From Lampris incognitus (Eukaryota; Chordata; Actinopteri; Lampriformes; Lampridae), in NCBI RefSeq assembly GCF_029633865.1, contig NC_079213.1:109416582-109480581 (forward strand): 64,000 nt of DNA. Direction: 5' to 3'. The position numbers were made by a program, and so were the translations under genes. The first letter of the stretch is position 1, and every line of letters begins with the position of its first letter. Shown here piece by piece: positions 5,755-62,013 of the stretch. The notes beneath the pieces were generated by a model. The model saw only the letters and a list, made by a program, of their open reading frames with translations. It made no database searches and was not told the origin of the DNA.

Positions 5755-5889
5755 TGTAACCGGTTAATTTCTTGCCCGGTGCGGGATTCGATCCTGGATG
5801 TACTGCGCCGCAAGGCGACATCGCGAACTGCTCGGCTAAAGGGTCAGACCCGTTAGCTAGCGGCTAACGTGTCTTATTAGTAGTTTACA
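5755..5889 (-). mobile_element. Solo LTR of the tRNA-like TRIM family
   Basis: A 135-bp LTR copy on the minus strand. On the plus strand it begins TGTAACCGGT and ends AGTAGTTTACA, and it is flanked by a perfect 4-bp duplication CAAA (5751-5754 and 5890-5893). Inside is the same tRNA-like block seen in the complete copy at 6.8-7.2 kb. The target duplication supports LTR-type integration rather than a SINE. Confidence 0.75.
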
Positions 5890-6616: not shown

Positions 6617-7690
6617 TTGCAACGGAGTCCTGGCTGGGGTACCCAGCGGAGCCCCAGACCGGCTCCGGTATGTGCAGCATTGAGCCGCTATAGGGTGCTC
6701 ACCCGCACCGAGCCCCGGGCAACACATCGCACCCACCCTAGTCCGCCTTCACCGGCTCCCGGTCAAATCCCGCACTTCTTAGGAAATCCACCTCCTCGCC
6801 TATAAACCCCTCCATGCCTGTAACACGTAGGATTGTTCTTCCTAGTGTAAACTACTAATAAGACACGTTAGCCCCCTAGCTAACGGGTCTGACCCTTTAG
6901 CCGAGCGGTTAGTGACGTCGCCTTGTGGTGCAGTATACCTCGTCTCGAATCCCGCACCGGGCAAGAAAATAACCGGTTACATTGGTGGCAGCGGTGGGAT
7001 CCGGAAGTGTGCAGATCCTCAGAAGTCTCTTCGGAGCGCGGGAAGAACAAAGCGCGAGGGTCACCCTTCCGGGGAGGGTGACGACTGTAAACTACTAATA
7101 AGACACGTTAGCCCCCTAGCTAACGGGTCTGACCCTTTAGCCGAGCGGTTAGTGATGTCGCCTTGTGGCGCAGTACACCCCGTATCGAATCCCGCACCGG
7201 GCAAGAAAATAACCGGTTACATTAGTTTGTGGTTCCGAGGAGCAATTAGAGTGTGACACAGGCCGCGAGTGACGTGGGCTAGAGATGGAAGTAGCGGAAC
7301 TGTTCGGCCTGAGGATTCCTGTAGACAACTAAAGCTTTAACCGTCCATTCTGTAGGGTTACAATGCCCCCCCCCCCCAGTACCTACCAGACCTCCTCAAC
7401 CCCGATATTCCGTCCCGGAATCTGCGGTCCACAGGCACGGGCCTGCTTCCCATCCCCCACACCAGCCTGCGGACTTCTGGGGAGAGAGCCCTTAGTGCGG
7501 CAGCCCCCCACCCTCTGGAGCTGTATAGAGATCCGCAGCGCTGCTTCTTTGGTCAGATTTTAAAAGACTACTGAAGACCTACCTTCTTACCAAGGCCTAC
7601 GGTCCGCAGTCTTCTGGTCTTTGTTTTTCTTGTCTAGTGTAAAGCATCCTTGGACAAAACTAAGTTGTTGTTGTAACAGGAATTTCACTT
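6617..7690 (+). mobile_element. LINE fragment (L2/CR1-like RT C-terminus) interrupted by a TRIM
   Basis: Six-frame reading gives words from the region after the reverse transcriptase core of L2/CR1-type LINEs: CNGVLAGVPSGAPDRL near 6617-6680, LVRLHRLPVKSRT near 6740-6775, and after the insertion DLLNPDIPSRNLRSTGTGLL near 7387-7450. Its 3' part ends near a C run at 7690. A TRIM (6846-7221) sits inside, so it entered a LINE that was already there. The reading frames are broken and 5'-truncated. Confidence 0.6.
6846..7221 (+). mobile_element. Complete TRIM-type miniature LTR element with tRNA-like LTRs
   Basis: Two 136-bp LTRs (6846-6981 and 7086-7221) begin TGTAAACTAC and end CGGTTACA, and differ at about five positions. 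The 104-bp interior starts one base after the 5' LTR with TGGTGGCAGCGGTGGGAT, an 18-nt match to the 3' end of tRNA-Leu including CCA. A purine-rich stretch (GGGGAGGG) lies near the 3' LTR. Flanks CTAG and TTAG match at 3 of 4 positions. Each LTR holds TAGCCGAGCGG (fits the A-box consensus) and, about 45 nt on, GTATCGAATCC (B-box, 9 of 11). It has no coding region, so mobility would need proteins from another element. It looks structurally whole. Confidence 0.8.
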
Positions 7691-11238: not shown

Positions 11239-11595
11239 TGCAGCCGGTTATTTTCTCGCCCGGTGCGGGATTCGATATGGGGTGTACTGCACCACAAGGC
11301 GACGTCACTAACCGCTCGGCTAAAGGATCAGACCCGTTAGCTAGAGGCTAACGTGTCGTATTAGTAGTTTACAGTCGTCACCCTCTCCCGGAAGCGCGCC
11401 CTCGCGCTTTGTTATTCCCGCGCTCCGAAGAGACTTCTGAGGATCTGCACACTTCCGGATCCCGCCACTGCCACCAATGTAACCGGTTACTTTCTTGCCC
11501 GGTGCGGGATTCGATACGGTGTACTGCACCACAAGGCGACATCACTAACCGCTCGGCTAAAGCTAGGGGCTAACGTTTCTTATTAGTAGTTTACA
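11239..11595 (-). mobile_element. Complete TRIM element with tRNA-like LTRs, second copy
   Basis: Two LTRs (11239-11373 and 11478-11595) flank a 104-bp interior whose tRNA-Leu primer site reads, in reverse, ATCCCGCCACTGCCACCA. A perfect 4-bp duplication CAAC flanks the element (11235-11238 and 11596-11599). One LTR is shorter than the other. It is clearly older than the copy at 6.8 kb, but its organisation is the same. Confidence 0.8.
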
Positions 11596-16700: not shown

Positions 16701-19700
16701 TGACGTATTATGACATCAGTTGGCGGCCTGAAAAACTGCAGCCAAGCAGGGTTTCTGGTATTCTAATCAACTCTAAACATGCCGTTCAAAAAAACAAATC
16801 CTAAGTTTCCGATGATGGAAATGATGTCCCACAACACTAGCACAGAGGCTTACATGTAGGAGCTGTAGAAAAGACTGAGCAGGAGAAGGCCGATTTCTCC
16901 TTCAATATAGTAAGATGTGAGGATTTTATTGCTTCAATCGACAATACGCCTCACCAATACTGATTGCACATACACAAAACCATACGTGAAAGTTCCCTTT
17001 AAGCTTTAGGGGCACAGTGGAGCTTAAAATTAATTTGTTTTGTTGTACATGCTTTCTTTGGATTTTTGCAGTTTTCAGATTTCACGGCAGATAAAGATAA
17101 TATTGAACTTCAATATTTCTATAGTGATATTTCAAAAATTGCAATATGCACTGAATTGGCGCTAAGATATCAAATCGGGACCCCTCTATTGATTCCCAGC
17201 ACTAAAATGTATTCTAGATCTTGATATCTGCATACCACCTGCCCTATTCTTCAGCGTTTTGATACTATGGCAAATACATGAAACAGTTTGCGCTATAATC
17301 ATTTGCCCTGGGAAAGTCCTACCAGTTAAATGTTCAAATGAGCGAGCACAAAAGCATTCAGGACTTCCTAGTATTTGTAGATTAACAAGTATCTTTAATA
17401 TGCCAGCTTGTTTGCATGTAAATCTTCAGGATTGTATCTTTAAAGGAGTGGTGAATATTTAACGGTTATACAGAGTTATGGGGTATCCAAGTGTCATGAT
17501 AAAAGGTAGTCAGGGCAAGTGTATAGATACCATCCCCCATAAAAGAAGTAGTCACCTGTTTGACCAGTCAGTAAATTAACACCAAATGTATGTAGTTTCT
17601 GTATTTTAGCTTTATCTTAAGTCTCCTTCGGCTACAGGTGTAGAAATCTTAAAAATAAAACATGACATTAATTGTAGCACCCCCAGTATATTTTTCTAAA
17701 TCCTTGATTTTGGTGGCATCATTCCTTTATGATTTTCGCAAAATTAGACCATTAGCATCTGCCATTTCCTGCATGAAATGAGGCATGACTGGGAGACCCA
17801 CTGTAATCATGTTGTGTAACTCGAGACTTTTTGAACTGTGGCTTCTCAATGTAAGTGAAGATGAAATACACTGCTCAAAAAAATAAAGGGAACACATAAG
17901 CAATGCAATGTAGCTCCAAGTCAATCACACTTTTGAGATATCAACCTGTCCAGTTAGGAAGCAACACTGATTTGTGAATCAATTTCACCTGTTGGTAAAT
18001 TGTCTAATTTCCACCAGGTGGAAATTAGACAATTTGCAAGACACCCCCTATAAAAGGAATGGATTTGCAGGTGGTGGCCACAGACCATTTGCCTGCCCTC
18101 ATCTTTTCTGGCCGATCTTTGGTTAGTTTTTCATTTTGCTAGTGCCCTCACCACTAGAGGTGGCATGAGGCGGTATCTGCAACCTACAGAAGTTGCTCAG
18201 GTAGTGCAGCTCATCCAGGATGGCACATCAATGCGTGCTGTGGCAAGAAGATTTGATGTGTTTCCCAGCACAGTGTCCAGAGCATGGAGGAGGTACCAGG
18301 AGACAGGCCAGTACACCAGGAGACGTGGAGGGGGCCGCAGGAGGACAACAACCCCGCAGCAGGACCGCTATCTGGTCCTTTGTGCAAGGAGGGACAGGAG
18401 GAGCACTGCCGGAGCCCTACAAAACGACCTTCAACAGGCCACTAATGTGCAGGTTTCTGCTCAAACAGTGAGAAACAGAATGCATGAGGATGGTATGAGG
18501 GCCCGACGTCCACAATTGGGGCCTGTGCTCACAGCCCAACACCGTGCAGCCCGATTGACCTTTGCCAGAGAACATCTTGGTTGGCAGATTCGCCATTGGC
18601 GCCCTGTGCTCTTCACAGATGAGAGCAGGTTCACACTGAACACATGTGACAGACGTGAGAGAGTCTGGAGACACTGTGGAGAACGTTCTGCTGCCTGCAA
18701 CATCCTCCAGCATGACCGGTTTGGTGGTGGGTCAGTGATGGTCTGGGGAGGCATATCCTTGGAGGGCCGCACAGACCTCTACGTGCTAGCCAGAGGTACC
18801 CTGACTGCCATTAGGTACCGGGATGAGATCCTCAGACCCATTGTCAGACCATATGCTGGTGCAGTGGGCCCTGGGTTCCTGCTCATGCATGACAATGCTC
18901 GTCCTCACGTGGCCAGAGTGTGTCAGCAGTTCCTGTATGTCGAGGGCATTGATGCTATGGACTGGCCTGCACGTTCCCCAGACCTGAATCCAATCGAGCA
19001 CCTCTGGGACATCATGTCTCGTACCATCCGCCAACGCGATGTCGCACCACAGACTGTCCAGGAGTTGACCGATGCCCTGATCCAGGTCTGGGAGGAGATC
19101 CCTCAGGAGACCATCCGTCGTCTCATCAGGAGCATGCCCAGACGTTGTAGGGAGTGCATACAGGCACGTGGAGGCCACACACACTACTGAGCCTCATTTT
19201 GAATCGTCTTGAAGAATTTCCACAGAAGTTGGATCAGCCTATGTTCTCATTTTCCACTTTGATTTTGAGTATGATTCTGAATCCAGACCTTAATGGGCTA
19301 ATGATTTTGATTTCCATTGATCATTCTTAGGTTATTTTGCTCTAAACACATTCCTCTGTCTAATAAATAAAGATTTTCAGCTGAAATATTTCATTCATCG
19401 AGGTCTATATTGTGTTTTTAGGTGTTCCCTTTATTTTTTTGAGCAGTGTATATTCTTTCTGATGTCCGCACCTCAGATTTTGCCCTTGAGATACCACTCA
19501 CCTCAGTAAGCTGGGCCTGGAGCTCTGCAATTTTCCTCTCATAAATCATCTTTCTGTCTGACACGATGGCCATCAGGTTGAATCGGATTTCCCCTTCACT
19601 GTACCTGCGAGGATGGATAACACGATTGGTTCAGTGAAAAACGAAGAACATGGCTTGTGTTTAGCTGGAGGAATATAAGCACGGAAATATAAACCGCTAA

Positions 19701-22700
19701 GTCTTCACAGACTCAAAGCAGTGAAAGACCTTTTGGTTATGAGCATAGAGGAATACACGAATGTGCCTGCATACAAAAAAAACCCGAGGTACTCCATGTC
19801 TCACCGCCGACTGGAACATGTTACCGAGAAAATACAGGAAAATATTTTAAACAATGGTAAAAGATTTGAGTGTGCGGGAGTTTTAGCAGACCCATAATAT
19901 AAACTGCAGAAGCAAGCATATGTTTACTATAAAATGAATTGGGTATAGGTGTTTACTTCTGTATTCTTTTTTCGATCACTGGACGAACTGCATTGATCCA
20001 GTCATCCTGGTTGCAAGCACCTGGAACACAACACAAATAAGGAGAGGAAGTAATTTAGAAATATCACACATTAGACTGCAGGTGCCCATGTATAATTATC
20101 ATCACAAAGCCAACAGCTTTGGGTGAAATGGACCATGACAAACAGGGGGAAATTAGCTTAATTGGAGTGCACAGTAGAGTCTGGCACCAGGCAACTTTCC
20201 ACATTAATTATTGTCAATCCTCAAACTGCAAACTGAAAGACGTGCAACAATTGCAAAATGATACAAAGTATCTACATTCTCTTTTCAAGATGCATGAATG
20301 TGTAACCCACACAGCACGTTTGATTGGTCAGATGAGTACAACTGGGTGGACAGACAGGTGGGTGGAGTTTTCACCTTTCTAAGCAGTGACTGACAATGAC
20401 ATCTGCACCCATCAGCGATCTCCATCATGCAAAATGAACTCAACCTCTGGTTAAAGCAACGTGCATGTCGCTGATCTGATGATTGAAAATTGTGTTCTTT
20501 CAAGTTGTTATCAATATGAGATTGATTAATTGTCCACCCCTAGGCCCTGTGATGGCTTGGCGGCCTGTCCAGGGTGTCTCCCCGCCTGCCGCCCGATGAC
20601 TGCTGGGTTAGGCTCCGGCATTCCCACGACTGAGAGTAGGATAAGTGGTTTGGATAATGGATGGATGTCCACCCCTAACACCAACACCATCCACATTCCG
20701 ATGTCGGCAATTGAAAGTCTGGCCATGTATATTATATAATGCTCTGATGAAGGCAAAAGCCAAAACCCATCAGTCAGCCTTGCATGGCCAAAAAAATAAA
20801 TAAATAAAAGGTTTGCATGGAGCAAATCCTGCCACTTCCATGGTGTGTGTGGATTGCGCTCTACATGTTGCTGCTTACCCAGGTCGATTGGTCCCTCTCG
20901 TAGTCCATCCAGCTCATATAGTCTACCGTTTACAGGGACATAGCTCACAAAGTGAAATGCGTCCTCATCCTTTGCTGAAGATTTTGCATCAAATTCAAAC
21001 ATTTGCTGTCTGTAAAGAGAAACACAAAAAGTCTGCTTATATCAAAATAAAGAACAAGGAAATTTACAGTCACATACTATTGAAAGAGGAAATAAAGCAC
21101 CAAGGAATACTTAGATGTGGTGCTGGTTTTAGGCCATGTTAGCAACCAGGGCCAGCTTCATGGTGAAAATGAGATATCCAAATGATAATCAAATACATAA
21201 ATACAGACATATTTGGTTTATGGATGTGGTGAGGGAGGACATGCAGGTGGCTGGTGTGACAGAGGAAGATGCAGAGGACAGGAAGAGATGGAAACGGATG
21301 AGCCGCTGTGGTGACCCCTAATGGGAGAAGCCGAAAGTAGTAGTAGTGGTGGTGGTAGTAGTATAAGATATGTAAATCAATACATACGAACAACGTGGTG
21401 TTAAAATCATAGATAGAATTTGCTATTACAATTTACAATTTCATTTAGCAGACGTTTTTATCCAAAGCGTACATCTGAGAGTTAATACAACACAAGCAAG
21501 GATCTAGTCAGGAGGCGACAACACAAGCAAGTGCCAAAAAAAATAGGTTCAAGTCCGACAGGACAATAAATGTCAACAGGCAGTGCACAAAGGCAATGCA
21601 TAGGGTGAACAGAGGCGATTTGTTTTTTTCAGATGGTCATGCATATATACATAGTCATACACTTACATTTAAGTATCGGAAAGTATGAATGAAATGAAAA
21701 ATGCACCATACGATTCTTAAGCTGTCTATCATCTCAAAAGGATGACATGCTAAGTGATGTGAGCCTGGTTAGACCCTCGTCTCCCATCAGTACATTTCTA
21801 TTCCAGCAATACACTACCTAGAATCCTCATTAAAGACATTATCAAAGTGAGGGAAATAGGCTTGCTGTAAGGATGTTTGGACTGGAATAAGGTAATACTA
21901 TGATAAATACTACTACTAATAACAATAATAAAGTAATATTTTACAGTCATCACCAAATATAATATTTATTAAGAACTACAAATCTTTGAGTCACATTAGA
22001 AAGTTATACTAGTTAGAAATAATGAAATGATGCAGTGCTCAATGATAAACCAAGTAACGGGTCCACTAAGCCAAACTGGTGCATCACCAATACCATCAAC
22101 TAAGTGTCATCATTGAGTGTTTTACTTCTAAATCTCTTACCTAGGGCACTTACTGCACACCTATCCGTCCTTGAAAAGGAAACCCTACACTTTATAATCC
22201 TAAAGTTTGTGATTGCAAACATTCCCAAATCCTCTGTGTATAGTACACCTGGGCATTGAAACTCTCGTTAATGGTCATGCCTATTTGCATATGAAACCGA
22301 TCGTTGGGTTTCAGTCTATGCAGATGTATTGTTTATAGGGTGGGGACACCTGCAGTCAGTTTAGACTGAAGAGGTCACAGTAACACTTTCTATGAAGCTT
22401 GCATCTATAACGCCCTATAAGCATCTATAATGCCCGATAAGTGTAGCTATAAGTCATTGTAAGATTCATTATAACCATGTATATGCCCTCACAACACCTC
22501 ATAACCACCTTTATGATACATTATACAGATTCATGCATTATAAATGTCATCATTAGCCTGTTTATCTGTCAAATGTCATAATGCATCATAGCCAACTTGT
22601 TTTGCTGAAGTTTTGTCGAGATGCATAATGAGACTTCAGTGCTATTTCAGTCTTCCGCCATAGCCGTTAGTCATTGTAATACACATTATAGGAAAGTATG

Positions 22701-26274: not shown

Positions 26275-27492
26275 TCACTGGCCACTTTATTAGGTACACC
26301 TTGCTAGTACTGGGTTGGACCCCCTTTTGCCTTCAGAACTGCCTTAATCCTTTGTGGCATAGATTCAACAAGGTACTGGAAACATTCCTCAGAGAGTTTG
26401 GTCCATATTGACATGATAGCATCACGCAGTTGCTGCAGATTTGTCGGCTGCACATCCATGATGCGAATCTCCCGGTCCACCACATCCCAAAGGTGCTCTA
26501 TTGGATTGAGGTCTGGTGACTGTGGAGGCCATTTGAGTACAGTGAACTCATTGTCATGTTCAAGAAACCAGTCTGAGATGATTCGAGCTTTATGACATGG
26601 CGCGTTATCCTGCTGGAAGTAGCCATCAGAAGATGGGAACACTGTGGTCATAAAGGGATGGACATGGTCAGCAACAATACTCAGGTAGGCTGTGGCGTTG
26701 ACACGATGCTCAATTGGTACTAAGGGGCCCAAAGTGTGCCAAGAAAATATCCCCCACACCATTACACCACCACCACCAGCCTGAACCGTTGATACAAGGT
26801 AGGATGGATCCATGCTTTCATGTTGTTGACGCCAAATTCTGACCCTACCATCCGAATGTCGCAGCAGAAATCGAGACTCATCAGACCAGGCAACGTTTTT
26901 CCAATCTTCTATTGTCCAATTTTGGTGAGCCTGTGCGAATTGTTGCCTCAGTTTCCTGTTCTTAGCTGACAGGAGTGGCACCCGGTGTGGTCTTCTGCTG
27001 CTGTAGCCCATCTGCCTCAAGGTTCGACGTGTTGTGCGTCCAGAGATGCTCTTATGCATACCTCGGTTGTAATGAGTGGTTATTTGAGTTACTGTTGCCT
27101 TTCTATCAGCTGGAACCAGTCTGGCCATTCTCCTCTGACCTCTGGCATCAACAAGGCATTTTCGCCCACAGAACTGCCGCTCACTGGATATTTTCTCTTT
27201 TTCGGACCATTCTCTGTAAACCCTAGAGATGGTTGTGCGTGAAAATCCCAGTAGATCAGCAGTTTCTGAAATACTCAGACCAGCCCGTCTGGCACCAACA
27301 ACCATGCCACGTTCAAAGTCACTTAAATCACCTTTCTTCCCCCATTCTGATGCTCAGTTTGAACTGCAGCAGATCGTCTTGACCATGTCTACATGCCTAA
27401 ATGCATTGAGTTGCTGCCATGTGATTGGCTGATTAGAAATTTGCGTTAACGAGCAGTTGGACAGGTGTGCCTAATAAAGTGGCCGGTGAGTG
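26272..27492 (-). mobile_element. Tc1/mariner transposon of the DD36E (Incomer) type
   Basis: Terminal inverted repeats of about 30 bp (CACTCACTGGCCACTTTATT at the left, CACTCACCGGCCACTTTATT reversed at the right, 28 of 30 matching). TA target duplications flank it within a TA-rich microsatellite. Length 1,221 bp. It carries one long transposase frame. It lies between the divergent-side ends of uchl5 and glrx2. Confidence 0.93.
26304..27305 (-). CDS. DD36E Tc1/mariner transposase, 333 aa from an internal ATG
   Basis: Transposase with N-terminal helix-turn-helix segments ([20 protein letters not shown]). Catalytic acidic residues are in [17 protein letters not shown] and [11 protein letters not shown] count 36 residues between the second Asp and the Glu (DD36E), the spacing that defines the Incomer group. 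Upstream, 13 codons ending in KKGDLSDFERG continue in the same frame. The expected initiator ATG just before them is out of frame by one base in a G run (near 27346), so the annotated start is internal and the N-terminus is slightly short. Otherwise the frame is open to the usual GGPTQY end. Activity is possible but less certain than for the DD34E copy. Confidence 0.92.
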
Positions 27493-35038: not shown

Positions 35039-35153
35039 GCATAACCAGTTATTTTCTCGCCCGGTGCGGGATTCGATCCGGGGTATACTGCACCATAAGG
35101 CGACATCACTAACCGCTCGGCTAAAGGGTCAGACCCACTAGCTAGGGGGCTAA
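35039..35153 (-). mobile_element. Partial LTR of the tRNA-like TRIM family
   Basis: Reverse-oriented LTR from its 3' end through the B-box and A-box, incomplete at its 5' end. Lies head-to-head with the copy at 35269-35580. Confidence 0.7.
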
Positions 35154-35268: not shown

Positions 35269-35580
35269 TTTATCCGAGCGGTTAGTGATGTCGCCTTGTG
35301 GTGCAGTACACCCCGTATCGAATCCCGCACCGGGCAAGACAATAACCGGTTACACTGGTGGCAGCGGTGGGATCCGGAAGTGTGCACATCCTCAGAAGTC
35401 TCTTCGGAGCGCGGGAGGGCGCGCTTCCGGGGAGGGTGACGACTGTAAACTACTAATAAGACACGTTAGCTCCCTAGCTAACGGGTTTGACCCTTTAGCC
35501 GAGCGGTTAGCGATGTCGCCTTGTGGTGCAGTACACCCCGTATCGAATCCCGCACCGGGCAAGAAATATAACCGGTTACA
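35269..35580 (+). mobile_element. TRIM element with incomplete 5' LTR
   Basis: Partial 5' LTR (35269-35354), then the tRNA-Leu-type primer site (TGGTGGCAGCGGTGGGAT from 35356), a short interior and a full 137-bp 3' LTR (35444-35580). The primer site and LTR ends match the complete copies. Confidence 0.75.
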
Positions 35581-36345
35581 ACAGCAACACAAATGGTTCT
35601 TACCTTCTTCTTTCTTGACTTTTTCTCCGCAAACTCTGTGATCAAGTCCTCAAAATCCATCTGTGCATTACTGCAGCCGACGGTAGCTGCTTCCGGGCTA
35701 GCGCTACTGCTAGCTATGTAGCTAGCTCGACATCCTCCGCTGGAATGCCCTCTACTTCACTTTCTTTAGCTTTTATGAAAAAGCTGCTTGTTAGCGGGGC
35801 TTTTTTTATTATTATCGTGGCCGCTTCTCTCACTTCCTTTCCCTTCCTTTTCTTTTCTTCTGGCAGCCCCGCCGGGCTGTTGGTTAACGCCCTCCATTTT
35901 CTGCTGCTTGGCACGTTTTCCCGCGCACTTCTCACTGATACAACCTCACTGATAGCGGGTCAGGTGGAAATCACGTCCACTGTTTATAACCCTCGACTTG
36001 GTTTAAGAAAAACTGATCTCGAATCTGTGCAGTGTGAGCCACCTGCTCTCTATGCCCACCCACCGTGGCCGTTAGCCATTAGCATTACCGCTAGCTCACC
36101 AGTCACCGCTTGCCCAGCCAGCTCGCCAATAAGACAACCAATCATGAGGTTTAATTTTCAGAGAAACAGCTTTTACTTCATTCTGATTGGATAATTATCA
36201 AGACCAAGAGAATGGGTCATATTTCATTTCGGTGGAGTTCGACATATAAAAATAAATATCTAAAAACAAATGTCTCCCATCCCGGAGGGCCCTTTTGCAC
36301 TCAGGGGCCCCTGGTGATTCCCCATATGGTAGATCCGGCTATGTG

Positions 36346-41165: not shown

Positions 41166-41887
41166 CAATATCGAGGCAATATATCAAGCCGATACACATA
41201 TTCACAGGCAGCACTGGTCACAAGTGAGAGGTAACAATACGAGTTTTATAGTGAATCTCAACTCAAGTCATAACGTGAGTCATGAGTGTAGGCTATGTCG
41301 CCCCCAGGAGACTCCCAACCCTTACAATCAGCAAGCGTTTATTGTAGCTGCAGGGAAACCGACACCACCGATGAAAAACGTGTTGTGCTGTGCTTAGTGT
41401 GTCTCTGCAGCAGAGTGTTCAGCTATCGGATTAATCTATAATACGCATCGTGTTAACATTTAGCTACTCACGCCGAACCGTGCCTTAATGCTGTTAGGAG
41501 AACGGAGCTGGACAGGGCGGATTTCAGATCTAAAAGAAAAATCTCACCTTCCCATATCAGCCGAGGAAGTTCCTTCCTCCTCACCTCAACACAGTGTCTG
41601 TGCTGAAATTGGTGTGAGAAATGGACGCCACGCTTGCAGACTTTCGGCAGGGAAATGTGTGCACCGACGCTCCTGCTCCACCTCCTCATACTTGTGGAGG
41701 ACATGCTGTTGGAAAGGGGTGGGAAAAATTACCAACATGGGGAATGATTATGTCTCCCTCCAAAACAGGGAGGGCAAAAGTTTCCCCAATTTCCCCCTTG
41801 TGGCGGGTCTCAACATGAAGTGCAACTGCTGAATTCCCTTCAATTCTCCATTAATCTGATTCTGCTGCATTCTGAGCATTCTAAGTG
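41166..41887. other. Stretch without recognised features
   Basis: No exon passed inspection. Several short open frames near 41490-41830 have no recognisable motif. Confidence 0.35.
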
Positions 41888-42025
41888 TAACGGCCACGGA
41901 TGTGTAGACTAGCTAGCCCGTTGGCTAACGGGCCGGACCCTTTAGCTGACTGGCTAGCGCAGTCAGTCGCCCGTGGTGTGGGCGACCCGGGTCCGCTTCC
42001 CCGGCTGCCCCCTGAATTCGCTACA
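41888..42025 (+). mobile_element. LTR-like element of a second family with a similar tRNA-like block
   Basis: 138 bp, begins TGTAACGGCC and ends TTCGCTACA. Contains TTGGCTAACGGGCCGGACCC then TTTAGCTGACTGGCTAGCGC in the same order as the TRIM LTRs (hairpin, GGACCC hairpin, A-box-like segment). The flanks do not give a clear target duplication. Probably a related solo LTR, an old copy. Confidence 0.5.
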
Positions 42026-42904: not shown

Positions 42905-43640
42905 GCCGTGTGAATCCGCATCACCGTGTTAAAAACGAAACGAACATCTTAGCGAGAGAAGGCTGTAAGATTGAGACAACATAACAAAATTATACGGATT
43001 TATGAGATATATAAAAAGGAAATGTGATGAGAGGGATGCCAAGCCGTGTCCAGGTGGCAACCACCATCGCCATGGAAACCTGGGAGGAGGACAGACCGCA
43101 CGTGCACACAGACTCACGTCACCCCATTCGCACAAACAGAAGCAGAGAACGGAGAAGGCATCGTTCAGAGAGAGAGAGCGAGAGAGAAGAGAACATTGTG
43201 TGTTTCCTTTCATTTTAAACTTCCCCAGTAAACTTCCCTCCCAAATTGATTGGTGGCTTCTGATTTTTTGTTTTGTTTCCTCGGTTTCTCCGTTCGTATT
43301 TGGCCTACACGCTTTGTCAGCCCACACATTCTCCACGGCCCCCGCTGCAGCTTTGGGCCAAGAAGCCAGGCGATAGTGAAGAAAACGCCCGCCGGTGGGT
43401 GTCCATAGATCACCGCGTGGCTCGCGGCCACGGGCCTGATCGAGTGCCGCGGAGACGCCGCTAAACAGGCAATCGGCAAAGTGCGTCATCACTCATTTTC
43501 AGTCAGCTCGTCGATAAACGAACACTGGAATCCATAGCACTTACCGCCCGGATAAGTAAACGCGTGTCAGCGTGATTTTTCACTTCTTCCACTTTAATCA
43601 AAATGAGAGGGGGGTTTGTTTTTTTTCCCTCCTTTACTTT
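42905..43640. other. Repeat-derived and unassigned sequence
   Basis: 42950-43080 resembles the LINE fragment at 42160-42300. A GAGA run lies near 43170. The 187-codon open frame here on the minus strand shows no recognisable domain. Confidence 0.35.
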
Positions 43641-43649
43641 TTTCTTGCT

Positions 43650-45165
43650 GAAGCTCCAGGCCTCCATACCTGCAGGCGCTCAGCAACTCGCAGGGCCGGC
43701 CCAAGCCTTTTTGGGGCCCCAAGCAGAATGTTATATACGCCCCCCCACCCCCCCAGGACCACTTTGTAACTCCATGTGGCGGCAGGACCCCAAGAGGCTA
43801 CTTGGTTAGCTTCTACCTGAAGCTCCAGGCCTCCATACCTGCAGGCGCTCAGCAACTCGCAGGGCCGGCCCAAGCCTTTTTGGGGCCCCAAGCAGAATGT
43901 TATATACGCCCCCCCACCCCCCCAGGACCACTTTGTAACTCCATGTGGCGGCAGGACCCCAAGAGGCTACTTGGTTAGCTTCTACCTGAAGCTCCAGGCC
44001 TCCATACCTGCAGGCGCTCAGCAACTCGCAGGGCCGGCCCAAGCCTTTTTGGGGCCCCAAGCAGAATGTTATATATGCCCCACACCCCCCCAGGACCACT
44101 TTGTAACTCCATGTGGCGGCAGGACCCCAAGAGGCTACTTGGTTAGCTTCTACCTGAAGCTCCAGGCCTCCATACCTGCAGGCGCTCAGCAACTCGCAGG
44201 GCCGGCCCAAGCCTTTTTGGGGCCCCAAGCAGAATGTTATATATGCCCCACACCCCCCCAGGACCACTTTGTAACTCCATGTGGCGGCAGGACCCCAAGA
44301 GGCTACTTGGTTAGCTTCTACCTGAAGCTCCAGGCCTCCATACCTGCAGGCGCTCAGCAACTCGCAGGGCCGGCCCAAGCCTTTTTGGGGCCCCAAGCAG
44401 AATGTTATATACGCCCCAACCCCCCAGGACCACTTTGGAACTCCATGTGGCGGCAGGACCCCAAGAGGCTACTTGGTTAGCTTCTACCTGAAGCTCCAGG
44501 CCTCCATACCTGCAGGCGCTCAGCAACTCGCAGGGCCGGCCCAAGCCTTTTTGGGGCCCCAAGCAGAATGTTATATACGCCCCAACCCCCCAGGACCACT
44601 TTGGAACTCCATGTGGCGGCAGGACCCCAAGAGGCTACTTGGTTAGCTTCTACCTGAAGCTCCAGGCCTCCATACCTGCAGGCGCTCAGCAACTCGCAGG
44701 GCCGGCCCAAGCCTTTTTGGGGCCCCAAGCAGAATGTTATATACGCCCCCCACCCCCCCAGGACCACTTTGTAACTCCATGTGGCAGCAGGACCCCAAGA
44801 GGCTACTTGGTTAGCTTCTACCTGAAGCTCCAGGCCTCAATACCTGCAGGCGCTCAGCAACTCGCAGGGCCGGCCCAAGCCTTTTTGGGGCCCCAAGCAG
44901 AATGTTATATACGCCCCCCCACCCCCCCAGGACCACTTTGTAACTCCATGTGGCGGCAGGACCCCAAGAGGCTACTTGGTTAGCTTCTACCTGAAGCTCC
45001 AGGCCTCCATACCTGCAGGCGCTCAGCAACTCGCAGGGCCGGCCCAAGCCTTTTTGGGGCCCCAAGCAGAATGTTATATACGCCCCCCCCCCCCAGGACC
45101 ACTTTGTAACTCCATGTGGCGGCAGGACCCCAAGAGACTACTTGGTTAGCTTCTGCCTGAAGCCG
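43650..45165. repeat. Satellite array, nine units of 166-169 bp
   Basis: The landmark CCTCCATACC (once CCTCAATACC) recurs at 43661, 43830, 43999, 44167, 44335, 44501, 44667, 44835 and 45004. Units differ mainly in the length of a C run and at a few bases, so expansion looks recent. Each unit holds GCAGGGCCGGCCCAAGCC, like the end of a hAT element, suggesting the unit includes a transposon end. Because 168 is a multiple of 3, long open frames appear, but they are not genes. Confidence 0.95.
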
Positions 45166-45523
45166 TCCCTGTTCAACTGTAATGCCACCTTTGTTGAGGA
45201 GATGACGGCCAAGTAGACCGTGGGAGCAAACGGGATTAGCTAAAGAAAGTAAGAGAGCGCTGTCACATATCCCCCCCGATTGTTTTCTGCCGATCCGGGT
45301 AGGGCTGCCTCCTCCCATACCAGAGGTGTAAAAACCAGGTCCAGAAAGTAAAGGTCCAAACCATGTATTTGCTGTATTCACGCACTACGCCAGAGATTCT
45401 AGTCAACACCACCCCTCAACTAGGTAGGGAAAACTAGCTAATGAAATCAGCTGGTTTACTAACATGGTTGGAGCAAATACACGGTTTGGACTTTTACTTT
45501 CTGGGCCTGGTTTTTACAACTCC
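45166..45523. other. Stretch without recognised features
   Basis: Begins with the ragged end of the satellite. A 20-base inverted word pair (CCAGGTCCAGAAAGTAAAGG near 45335, reversed near 45490) suggests an old MITE. Confidence 0.35.
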
Positions 45524-45832
45524 GTCCGATACGCGTGGAGTCGCCCCCCGCGTCTTTTCACCCGACAGTGAGGAGTTTCACCAGGAGGACGTAGCACATG
45601 GGAGGATCACTCTATTCCCCCCTCCTCCCCTTGAGCAGGCGCCCCAACCGACCAGAGGAGGCGCTAGTGCAGCGACCAGGACACACACACCCCCACATCT
45701 GGCTTCCCACCCGCAGACACGGCCAGTCGTGTCTGCGGGGACGCCAACCGAGCCGGAGGTAACACGGGGATTCGAACCCCGCGTGTCGGTGGGCAACGGA
45801 ATAGACCCGCTACGCTACCAAGACGCCCCCAT
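45524..45832 (-). repeat. SINE-B, near full length
   Basis: Reverse of the SINE-B body, ending in the tRNA-like head with B-box (reverse GGGGATTCGAACCCC) and GTAGCGGGTCTATTCCGTTG. Confidence 0.8.
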
Positions 45833-55289: not shown

Positions 55290-57220
55290 GATGCTGTCCC
55301 CTGAGAAATGTTAGCATTTTGCTACGTTCTTCAACAACAAAATTATTGCCATTAGACAGAACATTAGGACCTCAAGATCCGGAAATGAACCTACTCTCCA
55401 GTTCTCCAGAAATTCACTGGCGTCATGTCTCACTTTGAGCTTCTAGACCTTAAAAAACTAGAAAATATTGTTTGGCAGCTCAGGTCCTCCACCTGCTGCT
55501 TGGATCCTCTTGGATCCTCTGCTTGGATCCTACCACGTTTTTTTTAAAGCTGTTTTTAATTGCTTAGCACCTGATGTATTTGAAATGACCTGCTCTCTTC
55601 AGTCAGGTATATTTCCTGCAGCACTTAAAACACTGTCATTAACCACTTCTGAAGAAGAGCAACCATGATGAGACAGTTATTGCCAACTATAGGCCCATCT
55701 CCAACTTACCATCTTCAACTAAATACTTGAGAAAAAAAAACAGTTTATTCTCAACTTAATAACTACCTAACATCAAACAACCTTCTAGACATTTATCAAT
55801 CAGGTTTTCAATCTCACCATAGCACAGAAACAGCACTTATCATAGTTGTGAACAATCTTGCATATGAACACGGGTTCTAATAAATTATCTGTTCTTGTGC
55901 TCCTGGATCTCAGCACCGCCTTCAACACTGTTGACTATGATATCTTAAAAGAGAGATTCGAAAAATGGGTCAGCCTATCTGGCCTGGATCTGAACTTGTT
56001 TAGAATCTACCTACAGGACAAGCAGTTTTTTGTGTCCATTGGAGACTTTGCCTCAGACAAAGTGGGTTTTATGTGTGGGGCACCCCAAGGTTCGATTCTT
56101 GGACCATTACTATTTAATCTCTATATGCTCCCACTCGCACATGTCATACAGAAACACAAAATAAATTACCATAATTATGCAGATAACTCACAACTGTATG
56201 TGTCCCTATCTCCTGATGACCTAGATCCCATACATTCCCTGTGTATTGGCGATATTAATCTATGGATGTCAGAGAAATATTTACAGTTGAACAAAGACAA
56301 GACAGAACTAATTTTTGGTGCAAAGACTCAGAGACAGAGAATTGCAGCTCATCTCAGCTCTCTGTCTCTGGAGTGCAAAAGTGAAGCTAGAAATCTTGAT
56401 GTAATCATAGACAGTGATCTAAATTTTAATAGCCGCATCAATCATCTCACAAGATCAGCCTTCTACCATCTTAAAAACATTTCAAAACTAAGGGGCTTTC
56501 TCTCAAAATCAGACTGAGAATTTAATCCATGTGTTTATATCATTGTAGACTTGTGAACTGCTGTTTTTAGCTATATTTTTGTGTTCTTTTCCTGTGTTGT
56601 ATTTCTTTGTTGTTGTCTTTAATATGGACCTACCTTTGTGTCTTTGATATAACAAGTAGACTAGACTACTGTAATGGTCTATTCACTTAGATCTCTGCAT
56701 TGGCTCCCTGTCAAAACTGGAACTGATTTTAAAATTCCATTTCTTGTATACAAAGCGCTAAATGGCCTTACACCTCAGTATATGAAAGACATGCTAATTA
56801 TACACAAACTGGCAAGAACGCTCAAGTCCAAAGTCTTTTAACCATCCCTCATACTAACTCTAAAGCAGGGGAAGCTGCCTTTTAAACGTATGCCTCAAGT
56901 GGACGGAGCGCCCTGACTGAGGACCTGAGAGAGGCCCCCACACTTAAAAGTAGGTTAAAAACCTTACTTTTCATAACAGCCTACAGCTAAGTTTTTGGTG
57001 TGTGTGTGTGTGTGTTTTGCATATTTTGATATTTGTATATTCTGCTCCGATTCCTACACTACACTAACAATTGTTGATATACACATTTATTTTCTACAAC
57101 CACACTTTTAAAATTGTTACGGTTGTATTGTCATTTTATGTAAAGCACATTGTGTTGTCCATGTATGAAATGTGCTTCATACATGAAGTTTTTTGCTGCT
57201 GTTGTTGTTGTTGTTGTCAC
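55290..57220 (+). mobile_element. L2/CR1-group LINE, 5'-truncated, reverse transcriptase broken
   Basis: Non-LTR retrotransposon read in pieces: FFNNKIIAIRQNIRTS (about 55328), an ANYRPISNLPS segment (about 55690), a 219-codon frame (55858-56517) with RT palm words LVLLDLSTAFNTVDYDIL, APQGSILGPLLFNLYMLPL and LNKDKTELIFGA, then LHWLPV (about 56697) and a 3' UTR ending near 57220 with GTAAAGCACATTGTGTTG. The catalytic box reads YADN instead of YADD, so this copy could not work even apart from its frameshifts. The endonuclease half is absent. Confidence 0.85.
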
Positions 57221-60797: not shown

Positions 60798-60937
60798 TGT
60801 AACCGGTTATTTTCTTGCCCGGTGCGGGATTCGAGACGAACGGGGGTGTACTGCACCAGAAGGCGACATCACTAACTGCTCGGCTAAAGGGTCAGACCCG
60901 TTAGCTAGGGGCTAACGTGTCTTATTAGTACTTTACA
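60798..60937 (-). mobile_element. Solo LTR of the tRNA-like TRIM family
   Basis: 140 bp, plus strand begins TGTAACCGGTTATTTTCTTG and ends AGTACTTTACA. The tRNA-like block is present. Flanking tetramers CACT and GACT agree at 3 of 4. Confidence 0.75.
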
Positions 60938-61631: not shown

Positions 61632-62013
61632 CCGGTCCCGGTCGCTGCTCCGCCCCCCTCTGCTGATCTGGGGAGGGCTGCAGACTACCACGTCTCCTCC
61701 CATACATGTGGAGTCGCCAGCCGCTTCTTCTCACCTGACAGTGAGGAGTTTCACCAGGAGGACGTAGCGCGTGGGAGGATCATGCTAGTCCCTCCCAGCC
61801 ACCCCCCCCCCCGAACAGGCCCCCCGAGCGACCAGAGGAGGCGCTAGTGCAGCGACCAGGACACATACCCACACCCGGCTTCCCACCCGCAGACACGGTC
61901 ATTTATGTCTGCAGGGACGCCCGACCAAGCCGGAGGTAACACGGGGGATTCAAACCGGCGATCCCCATGTTGGTAGGCAGCGGAATAGCCCGCCATGCCA
62001 CCCGGATGCCGTG
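61632..62013 (-). repeat. SINE-B, full length
   Basis: Reverse-oriented copy with the complete tRNA-like head (reverse CATCCGGGTGGCATGGCG) and body (GAGGCGCTAGTGCAGCGACC). It and the copy at 45.5 kb fill in what is missing at 2.7 kb. Confidence 0.8.

Follow-up and report, generated by a model that had tools for sequence, protein, structure and literature searches.

A Helenus-type miniature LTR retrotransposon of Lampris incognitus and its hybrids with a Gypsy element, its likely helper

Helenus elements are TRIMs with tRNA-derived LTRs, reported from fungi, animals and one plant (Kojima 2024, PMC10886601). According to the portion of that paper used here, animal Helenus families generate 4-bp target duplications, the vertebrate primers are tRNA-His, tRNA-Leu or tRNA-Lys, and tandem arrays are seen in zebrafish. 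Gypsy is the suspected helper of animal Helenus, which is argued from the similarity of primer sites and the length of duplications, and fungal Helenus shares its interior with a Copia element (same portion of PMC10886601). Among the matches listed in the open-licence literature, Kojima 2024 is the only paper on Helenus or TRIMp3. Here we describe a family from Lampris incognitus, family T, together with a Gypsy element, G. T resembles vertebrate Helenus families, among them zebrafish LTR-11_DR with its relatives in Ostariophysi, in being a TRIM shorter than 1000 bp with an A/B-box block in the LTR, a tRNA-Leu-type primer, 4-bp duplications, tandem arrays and a suspected Gypsy helper; LTR-11_DR is compared by its published description alone. 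The best-matching tRNA is tRNA-His here, whereas the text used of PMC10886601 aligns fish Helenus with human tRNA-Val-CAC. The B box of T contains GTATC, whereas GGTTC is called conserved there. Hybrids with the helper are present for T and go unmentioned for Helenus in the same portion of PMC10886601.

ta-TRIM of tapeworms, whose proposed helper is lennie, is like T an animal TRIM primed by tRNA-Leu, with a helper suggested by common LTR ends and a common primer site (PMC4558846, in part). The helper of ta-TRIM is inferred by similarity, and the words Pol III and chimer- are absent from the main text of that paper, which also says in the part used here that no TRIM helper candidate had been identified before its own proposal. 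Cassandra of plants shares with T a captured Pol III promoter in the LTR, tandem arrays and the lack of coding capacity (excerpts of PMC10853983 and PMC7215508). Its promoter is that of 5S rRNA, not tRNA, and its partners are called unknown in the excerpt of PMC7215508. The earlier note on this DNA had proposed a tRNA-bearing counterpart of Cassandra in animals, and the LTR-type structure of T with its tRNA block supports the analogy.

RNAs of different LTR elements are reportedly joined during reverse transcription in the case of Dasheng and RIRE2 of rice. This pair is named in the part used of PMC4558846. Template-switch complexes of Triticeae are recognised by flanking target duplications (Sabot and Schulman, PMC1950507, in part). 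The G/T hybrids described below are similar to them in that RNAs of different LTR elements would be joined and in that the duplication criterion is used. The outer LTRs are alike in the Triticeae complexes as presented in that part of PMC1950507, whereas they differ in the G/T hybrids. Unlike T, which is a TRIM and has a Pol III-like LTR, the elements of both the Dasheng/RIRE2 and the Triticeae systems are long plant elements, as far as these sources describe them. No chimera between a Pol III-type TRIM and its helper was found in the titles and the beginnings of abstracts among the matches listed in the open-licence literature.

At positions 6846–7221 of the window, the whole 64,000-nt stretch of DNA that was analysed, lies a 376-bp TRIM with TG...CA ends, composed of a 136-bp LTR, a 104-bp interior and another 136-bp LTR. 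It contains no genes. The features of this element and the other copies in the window are as follows:

5755–5889 (−): solo LTR, family T; duplication CAAA/CAAA, exact
6846–6981 (+): 5' LTR, family T; 136 bp, 131/136 identical to the 3' LTR
6867–6884 (+): hairpin GTTAGC...GCTAAC upstream of the A box, from the sequence; the stem is also in the predicted RNA fold of the 3' LTR
6898–6908 (+): A-box-like TAGCCGAGCGG of the 5' LTR; 0 mismatches to the consensus
6942–6952 (+): B-box-like GTCTCGAATCC of the 5' LTR; 2/11 mismatches against GGTTCGANTCC
6982–7085 (+): interior, non-coding, 104 bp, from the sequence and blastn
6983–7000 (+): primer-binding site TGGTGGCAGCGGTGGGAT, tRNA-Leu; exact in 34 of 41 genome interiors
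7071–7078 (+): possible polypurine tract GGGGAGGG, read from the sequence; 7 nt before the 3' LTR, not adjacent to it
7086–7221 (+): 3' LTR, family T; A box 7138–7148, B box 7182–7192
11239–11595 (−): second complete element, family T; duplication CAAC/CAAC, exact
35040–35153 (−): LTR fragment, family T, truncated (35042–35153 by blastn)
35269–35580 (+): family-T element, 5'-truncated, from blastn
41886–42025 (+): solo LTR, diverged family F2, TGTAAC...GCTACA; flanks TAAG/TGAG (3/4)
60798–60937 (−): solo LTR, family T; flanks CACT/GACT (3/4)

The anatomy given in the earlier note (136-bp LTRs, tRNA-Leu site, 104-bp interior, no coding region) was confirmed, and so were the fit of the A box, the 9 of 11 matching bases of the B box and the hairpin GTTAG...CTAAC. 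The distance from A-box start to B-box start is 44 bp. The B box of the window copies of T is GTATCGAATCC or GTCTCGAATCC, with 2 mismatches each. Primer-binding sites of the tRNA-Leu type within 3 mismatches occur three times in the window, against 0.05 expected by chance. The same note considered the element an undescribed system. This claim fell, since the class had been published in 2024 as Helenus, fish included (PMC10886601, portion used here). The element at 6846–7221 is a Helenus-type TRIM.

All the other copies that had been named were recovered by blastn, and the duplications reported for the solo LTR (CAAA) and for the second complete element (CAAC) were found exact. The second complete element lacks 15 bp of its 5' LTR (at the high-coordinate end); the missing bases are those of the hairpin end and of the linker to the A box. 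The copy at 6846–7221 is flanked by CTAG/TTAG, which agree at three of four bases. Among the four window copies with both ends, exact 4-bp duplications are thus seen in two and agreement at 3/4 bases in two. The copies at 35040–35153 and 35269–35580 are mutually inverted and both truncated, and comparison of their flanks gave no matching target duplication for the pair. Just past the latter copy, at 35581–35660 (−), an apparent first coding exon with a splice donor was seen by eye. By its sequence, this truncated copy looks like one at the start of intron 1.

In the 1.48-Gb host genome, 2550 junctions of T LTR, primer site and T interior are present with up to 3 mismatches. The initial genome search scored 40 of 2464 candidates and gave 43 matches. 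Without the window copy, these correspond to 39 fetched loci, a sample biased towards the window copy. The test for 4-bp target duplications suggested in the earlier note turned out positive, with exact duplications at 23 of the 39 loci and at least three of four bases in agreement at 33. With L040, which has no left flank, left out, the exact rate of 23/38 compares with 1.9% for mispaired flanks, 16.6% of which agree at three or more bases. Three LTRs form an array at L041, and three or four LTR matches each are present at L040, L044 and L052. Because the identity between LTRs is 126–134 in 135–139 at all but two of the 39 loci, the LTR sequences point clearly to a family without very recent activity. 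Exact-pattern scans of IMG/VR and GTDB contigs and blastn against phages and plasmids revealed no relatives of T, and none are expected for a eukaryotic host.

The primer site of T matches the 3' end of tRNA-Leu at 18 of 18 nucleotides, and the host tRNA-Leu gene is 98% identical to the tRNA-Leu query. tRNA-Leu has also been copied beyond the 18-nt site: for 47 nt after a G LTR (L160) and, after T LTRs, for 43 nt (L162) and 48 nt (L163), lengths that come from local alignments with few mismatches. The other tRNA-Leu-matching stretches read, L161 and L164, have no G or T LTR. The read-through copies stop just 3' of the anticodon. The methylated guanine m1G37 at that position would halt the enzyme. 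Because of these read-through copies, the sequences support tRNA-Leu as the real primer of both T and G. After the primer copy, L162 (C16:10378370-) runs into an inverted T interior, and L163 (C1:50939480-) into the T interior from position 52.

The majority sequence of the T LTR was compared with 24 human tRNAs. tRNA-His is the best, with a score of 39 reached by none of 1000 shuffles, followed by tRNA-Asp and tRNA-Pro with 27, a score that 48 of 1000 shuffles attain across the panel. Val-CAC scores 18.5, which is at chance. The host tRNA-His, whose sequence was taken from three of eight loci, scores 45 against the T block, and none of 200 shuffles reach 45 against the tRNA panel. Judged by these alignments, the block in the T LTR is tRNA-derived and most like tRNA-His. 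Its A box contains TRGCY and YGG, the box A features of Helenus, and its B box lacks GGTTC. The Rfam tRNA model has no match at E up to 10 in the window, the element or the F2 copy, which led us to reject a functional tRNA, and the predicted fold of the block is not a cloverleaf. The hairpin loop upstream varies across the 83 family-T LTRs collected from the genome. Loose pairs of A and B boxes make up 26 rows in the window, against 2.8 expected per simulated window (largest 7 in 20 simulations); several of these rows count one LTR again because it has another A-like start, and some others are SINEs or chance pairs. As possible sources of the T block, nine further stretches with boxes, located in the window outside the LTRs, were considered and rejected, as none aligns with it convincingly (the best score is reached by 27 of 500 shuffles).

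The solo LTR of F2 had been absent from the earlier list of copies. Its alignment score with the T LTR is reached by none of 2000 shuffles. The alignment is confined to the segment from the hairpin to the B box, in which the hairpin, the A box and the B-box core are common, and the outer ends are diverged. F2 is a second family, older than T. Its LTR is about 134 bp long, and 46 matches were obtained in the genome from the 40 of 3281 candidates that were scored. The bases that follow 18 F2 copies are a primer site of the type TGGTGTCAGAAGTGGGAT in 15, a T-type site in two and a SINE in one. The site TGGTGTCAGAAGTGGGAT resembles, and presumably corresponds to, tRNA-Leu(CAA). The commonest state of the F2 B box is GGTTCGCTTCC, exact in 12 of 43, and it contains GGTTC. 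The F2 block (L014 and L089) is closer to tRNA-Asp or tRNA-Gly than to tRNA-His. An exchange of promoter bodies between related LTRs is a possible source of the resemblance of T to tRNA-His and of F2 to tRNA-Asp or tRNA-Gly. The other relatives, L107, L093 and L113, have no clear match to any tRNA.

An autonomous partner with shared LTR ends and primer site had been proposed as something to look for, and a candidate was found in the Gypsy element G. The primer site not followed by C was used as the search pattern; it occurs at 225 places, and 30 loci were read. Twelve of the 30 (L091, L095, L101–L103, L105, L106, L108, L109, L111, L112 and L114) match the 3' end of a 254-bp LTR (...CTCGGTTACA) on the same strand. 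In the G copy L126, Pfam searches with separate pieces detected an aspartyl protease, a reverse transcriptase, an RNase H and an integrase in this order, which is the Gypsy order (PR-RT-RNaseH-IN). G and T share the tRNA-Leu primer site and the LTR ends TGTAA...CGGTTACA. The two elements are identical over the five bases at the LTR start and over 27 uninterrupted bases, CGGTTACATTGGTGGCAGCGGTGGGAT, from CGGTTACA through the primer site. In the single G LTR examined there are four runs of at least four T, TATAA and AATAAA, with no A box within 1 mismatch and no B box within 2. Junctions of G LTR and G leader number 72 (up to 3 mismatches). Judged from these sequences, G is likely the autonomous helper of T. 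No G copy was found in the window by blast with the G LTR, the 5' region and a pol stretch.

With up to 3 mismatches, 269 junctions of a G LTR with a T interior and 10 of a T LTR with a G leader are present in the genome. Controls with reversed patterns gave 0 for each of the four combinations (T/T, G/G, G/T and T/G). T-type interiors behind a G LTR correspond to 269 of 2819, or about one in ten countable. This excess may be an overestimate, since a pair of unlike LTRs cannot recombine to a solo LTR. Another LTR element, Gypsy-like by eye, has the primer site of T and G and other LTR ends; it shows 12 junctions of its own and none with the T leader, and it is a modest control as it is rarer than G.

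The sample of hybrids comprised 28 of the 269 junctions, all of them exact plus-strand matches picked blind to structure, in addition to four compound loci. By a script rule, the start of a G LTR and the full end of a T LTR are present in 21 of the 28 loci. Sixteen of them are plain, with the order G LTR, interior, T LTR, and five are variants. Their structures are as follows:

L149: shortened interior
L156: interior and T LTR separated by about 130 bases of other sequence
L135, L155 and L159: followed by an additional T unit

The remaining seven of the 28 lack one outer end and were left out of the count of duplications; L135, in which the outermost LTR is cut, remained in this count and was scored as a mismatch. 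Exact 4-bp duplications flank 11 of the 21 hybrids, at least three of four bases agree in 18, and just two agree in three. Mispaired flanks gave 3.8% exact and 18.6% with at least three bases. Because the duplication rates exceed this control, many G/T hybrids are single insertions. The T parts of the hybrids do not form one clade (15 changes against a mean of 18 with shuffled labels; AU p = 0.010). The tree includes 21 of the 28 hybrid loci, rows without a complete interior and adjoining LTR being dropped, and its weak support (2 of 62 inner branches starred) qualifies the rejection of a single origin of the hybrids by this test. At least six of the 10 T/G junctions are compound, in the order G LTR, T interior, T LTR and then G body; four of these loci were read (L127, which is L101, L128, L129 and L111) and two were inferred from paired coordinates. 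At the T/G junction of L130, no G LTR is found upstream.

Very probably, T is a non-coding LTR retrotransposon with a tRNA-His-like LTR block that is copied in trans by the autonomous Gypsy element G. Priming by tRNA-Leu, integration with 4-bp duplications and the one-piece integration of hybrids with a 5' G LTR and a 3' T LTR are evident in the genomic copies. During normal reverse transcription, the strong-stop DNA of the plus strand, which consists of the LTR and the primer-site copy, anneals to the 3' primer site of its own minus strand. T and G nucleic acids are probably contained in one particle, where the plus-strand strong-stop DNA of G, ending in the primer-site copy, would anneal to the primer site of a T minus strand. 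Extension would give a 5' G LTR, the primer site, the T interior and a 3' T LTR. Repeats of the transfer on a G or T minus strand could produce compound elements and tandem arrays. Such a plus-strand transfer between T and G DNAs would need both nucleic acids in one particle. It appears to be the simplest path by which both LTRs stay whole, the primer site is preserved and a single target duplication results. The fuller scheme seems evenly balanced to us: T RNA made by Pol III would be packaged and reverse-transcribed by a Gypsy element transcribed by Pol II, the roughly one in ten interiors with a helper 5' LTR would record the trans-mobilisation of a TRIMp3 by plus-strand transfer, and tandem arrays of Helenus and Cassandra could be built in the same way.

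The hybrids would say nothing about particles if they were made after integration by DNA recombination at the shared 27 bp. CGGTTACATTGGTGGCAGCGGTGGGAT is indeed common to both elements at the junction of the LTR and the primer site, and recombination can also yield tandem arrays such as those of T. This is very unlikely, as duplications match outside the two unlike ends of the hybrids far more often than in mispaired flanks, and a shared duplication is not expected from two separate insertions (the criterion in the part used of PMC1950507); recombination at the DNA level was rejected on these matching duplications. Even less credible is the reading of T as a known tRNA SINE in dimeric or tandem form. 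The LTR contains a tRNA-like block and a true tRNA SINE is present in the same window, but T has LTRs (TG...CA) and a primer site, its copies show 4-bp duplications and include solo LTRs, it forms hybrids with an LTR element, and the nine box-bearing stretches outside the LTRs gave no convincing alignment. A tRNA SINE has no LTRs, no primer site and no 4-bp duplication, and a SINE dimer was rejected.

The role of the tRNA-like block is more finely balanced. Transcription of T by Pol III from the LTR block is slightly favoured here. Somewhat less than even weight is given to the block being a passive relic with dead A and B boxes, in which case T RNA would come from Pol II or from read-through of adjacent genes. 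Both A and B boxes had been expected in the family; the A box stood, and the B box did so in part. The B box GTATCGAATCC, found in 70 of 83 T LTRs, has 2/11 mismatches, and because of this the imperfection is family-wide and not confined to the element at 6846–7221. Among 126 eleven-base stretches ranked by variability, the B box is the 56th, which is average and no special conservation. The diverged relatives L092 (by eye) and F2 are nearer to the box consensus, and the tRNA model fails to match the block. The imperfect B box speaks half against the use of Pol III by T. Against a relic, the same A-box 11-mer is kept in 78 of 83 LTRs and ranks sixth, among the least variable, despite holding two CpGs. 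TATAA and AATAAA are each found in none of the 83 full T LTRs. T and F2 have in common the segment that starts with the hairpin and runs to the B box, and their outer ends are diverged. TTTT on the sense strand is rare, being present in two of 83 full LTRs and none of 41 interiors. Downstream of the six T copies of the window, the first TTTT appears 5 to 337 bases beyond the element. A Pol III transcript would therefore read through the 3' LTR, and the region downstream of the start would be repeated at both ends of the RNA.

So far the helpers of TRIMs with Pol III promoters have been inferred at best. The L. incognitus genome preserves a record of the helper in hundreds of hybrid junctions, many of which are single insertions. 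With T and G as one named pair, it becomes testable which elements copy TRIMp3. Plus-strand transfer at the common primer site could be considered a concrete route to hybrids and tandem arrays. In repeat annotation, LTR elements with ends from different families are to be expected.

The rest of the window contains other repeats and genes. A tRNA-derived SINE whose A and B boxes are perfect is located at 45768–45817 (−), where ARAGORN miscalls a tRNA-Pyl. The SINE repeat part at 45525–45622 is 86% identical to 61698–61795. Transposase frames of the Tc1/mariner type (HTH_Tnp_Tc3_2, DDE_3) are present at 18054–19187 (+) and 26307–27353 (−). The open frame at 55852–56514 (+) matches RVT_1 and is read as putatively LINE-type. 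An exon-like stretch at 20529–21041 (−) matches ubiquitin C-terminal hydrolase family 1 (Peptidase_C12), and we take it to be perhaps UCHL5. A tandem array with a spacing of about 168 bp, with at least nine copies among the matches listed, occupies 43572–45214.
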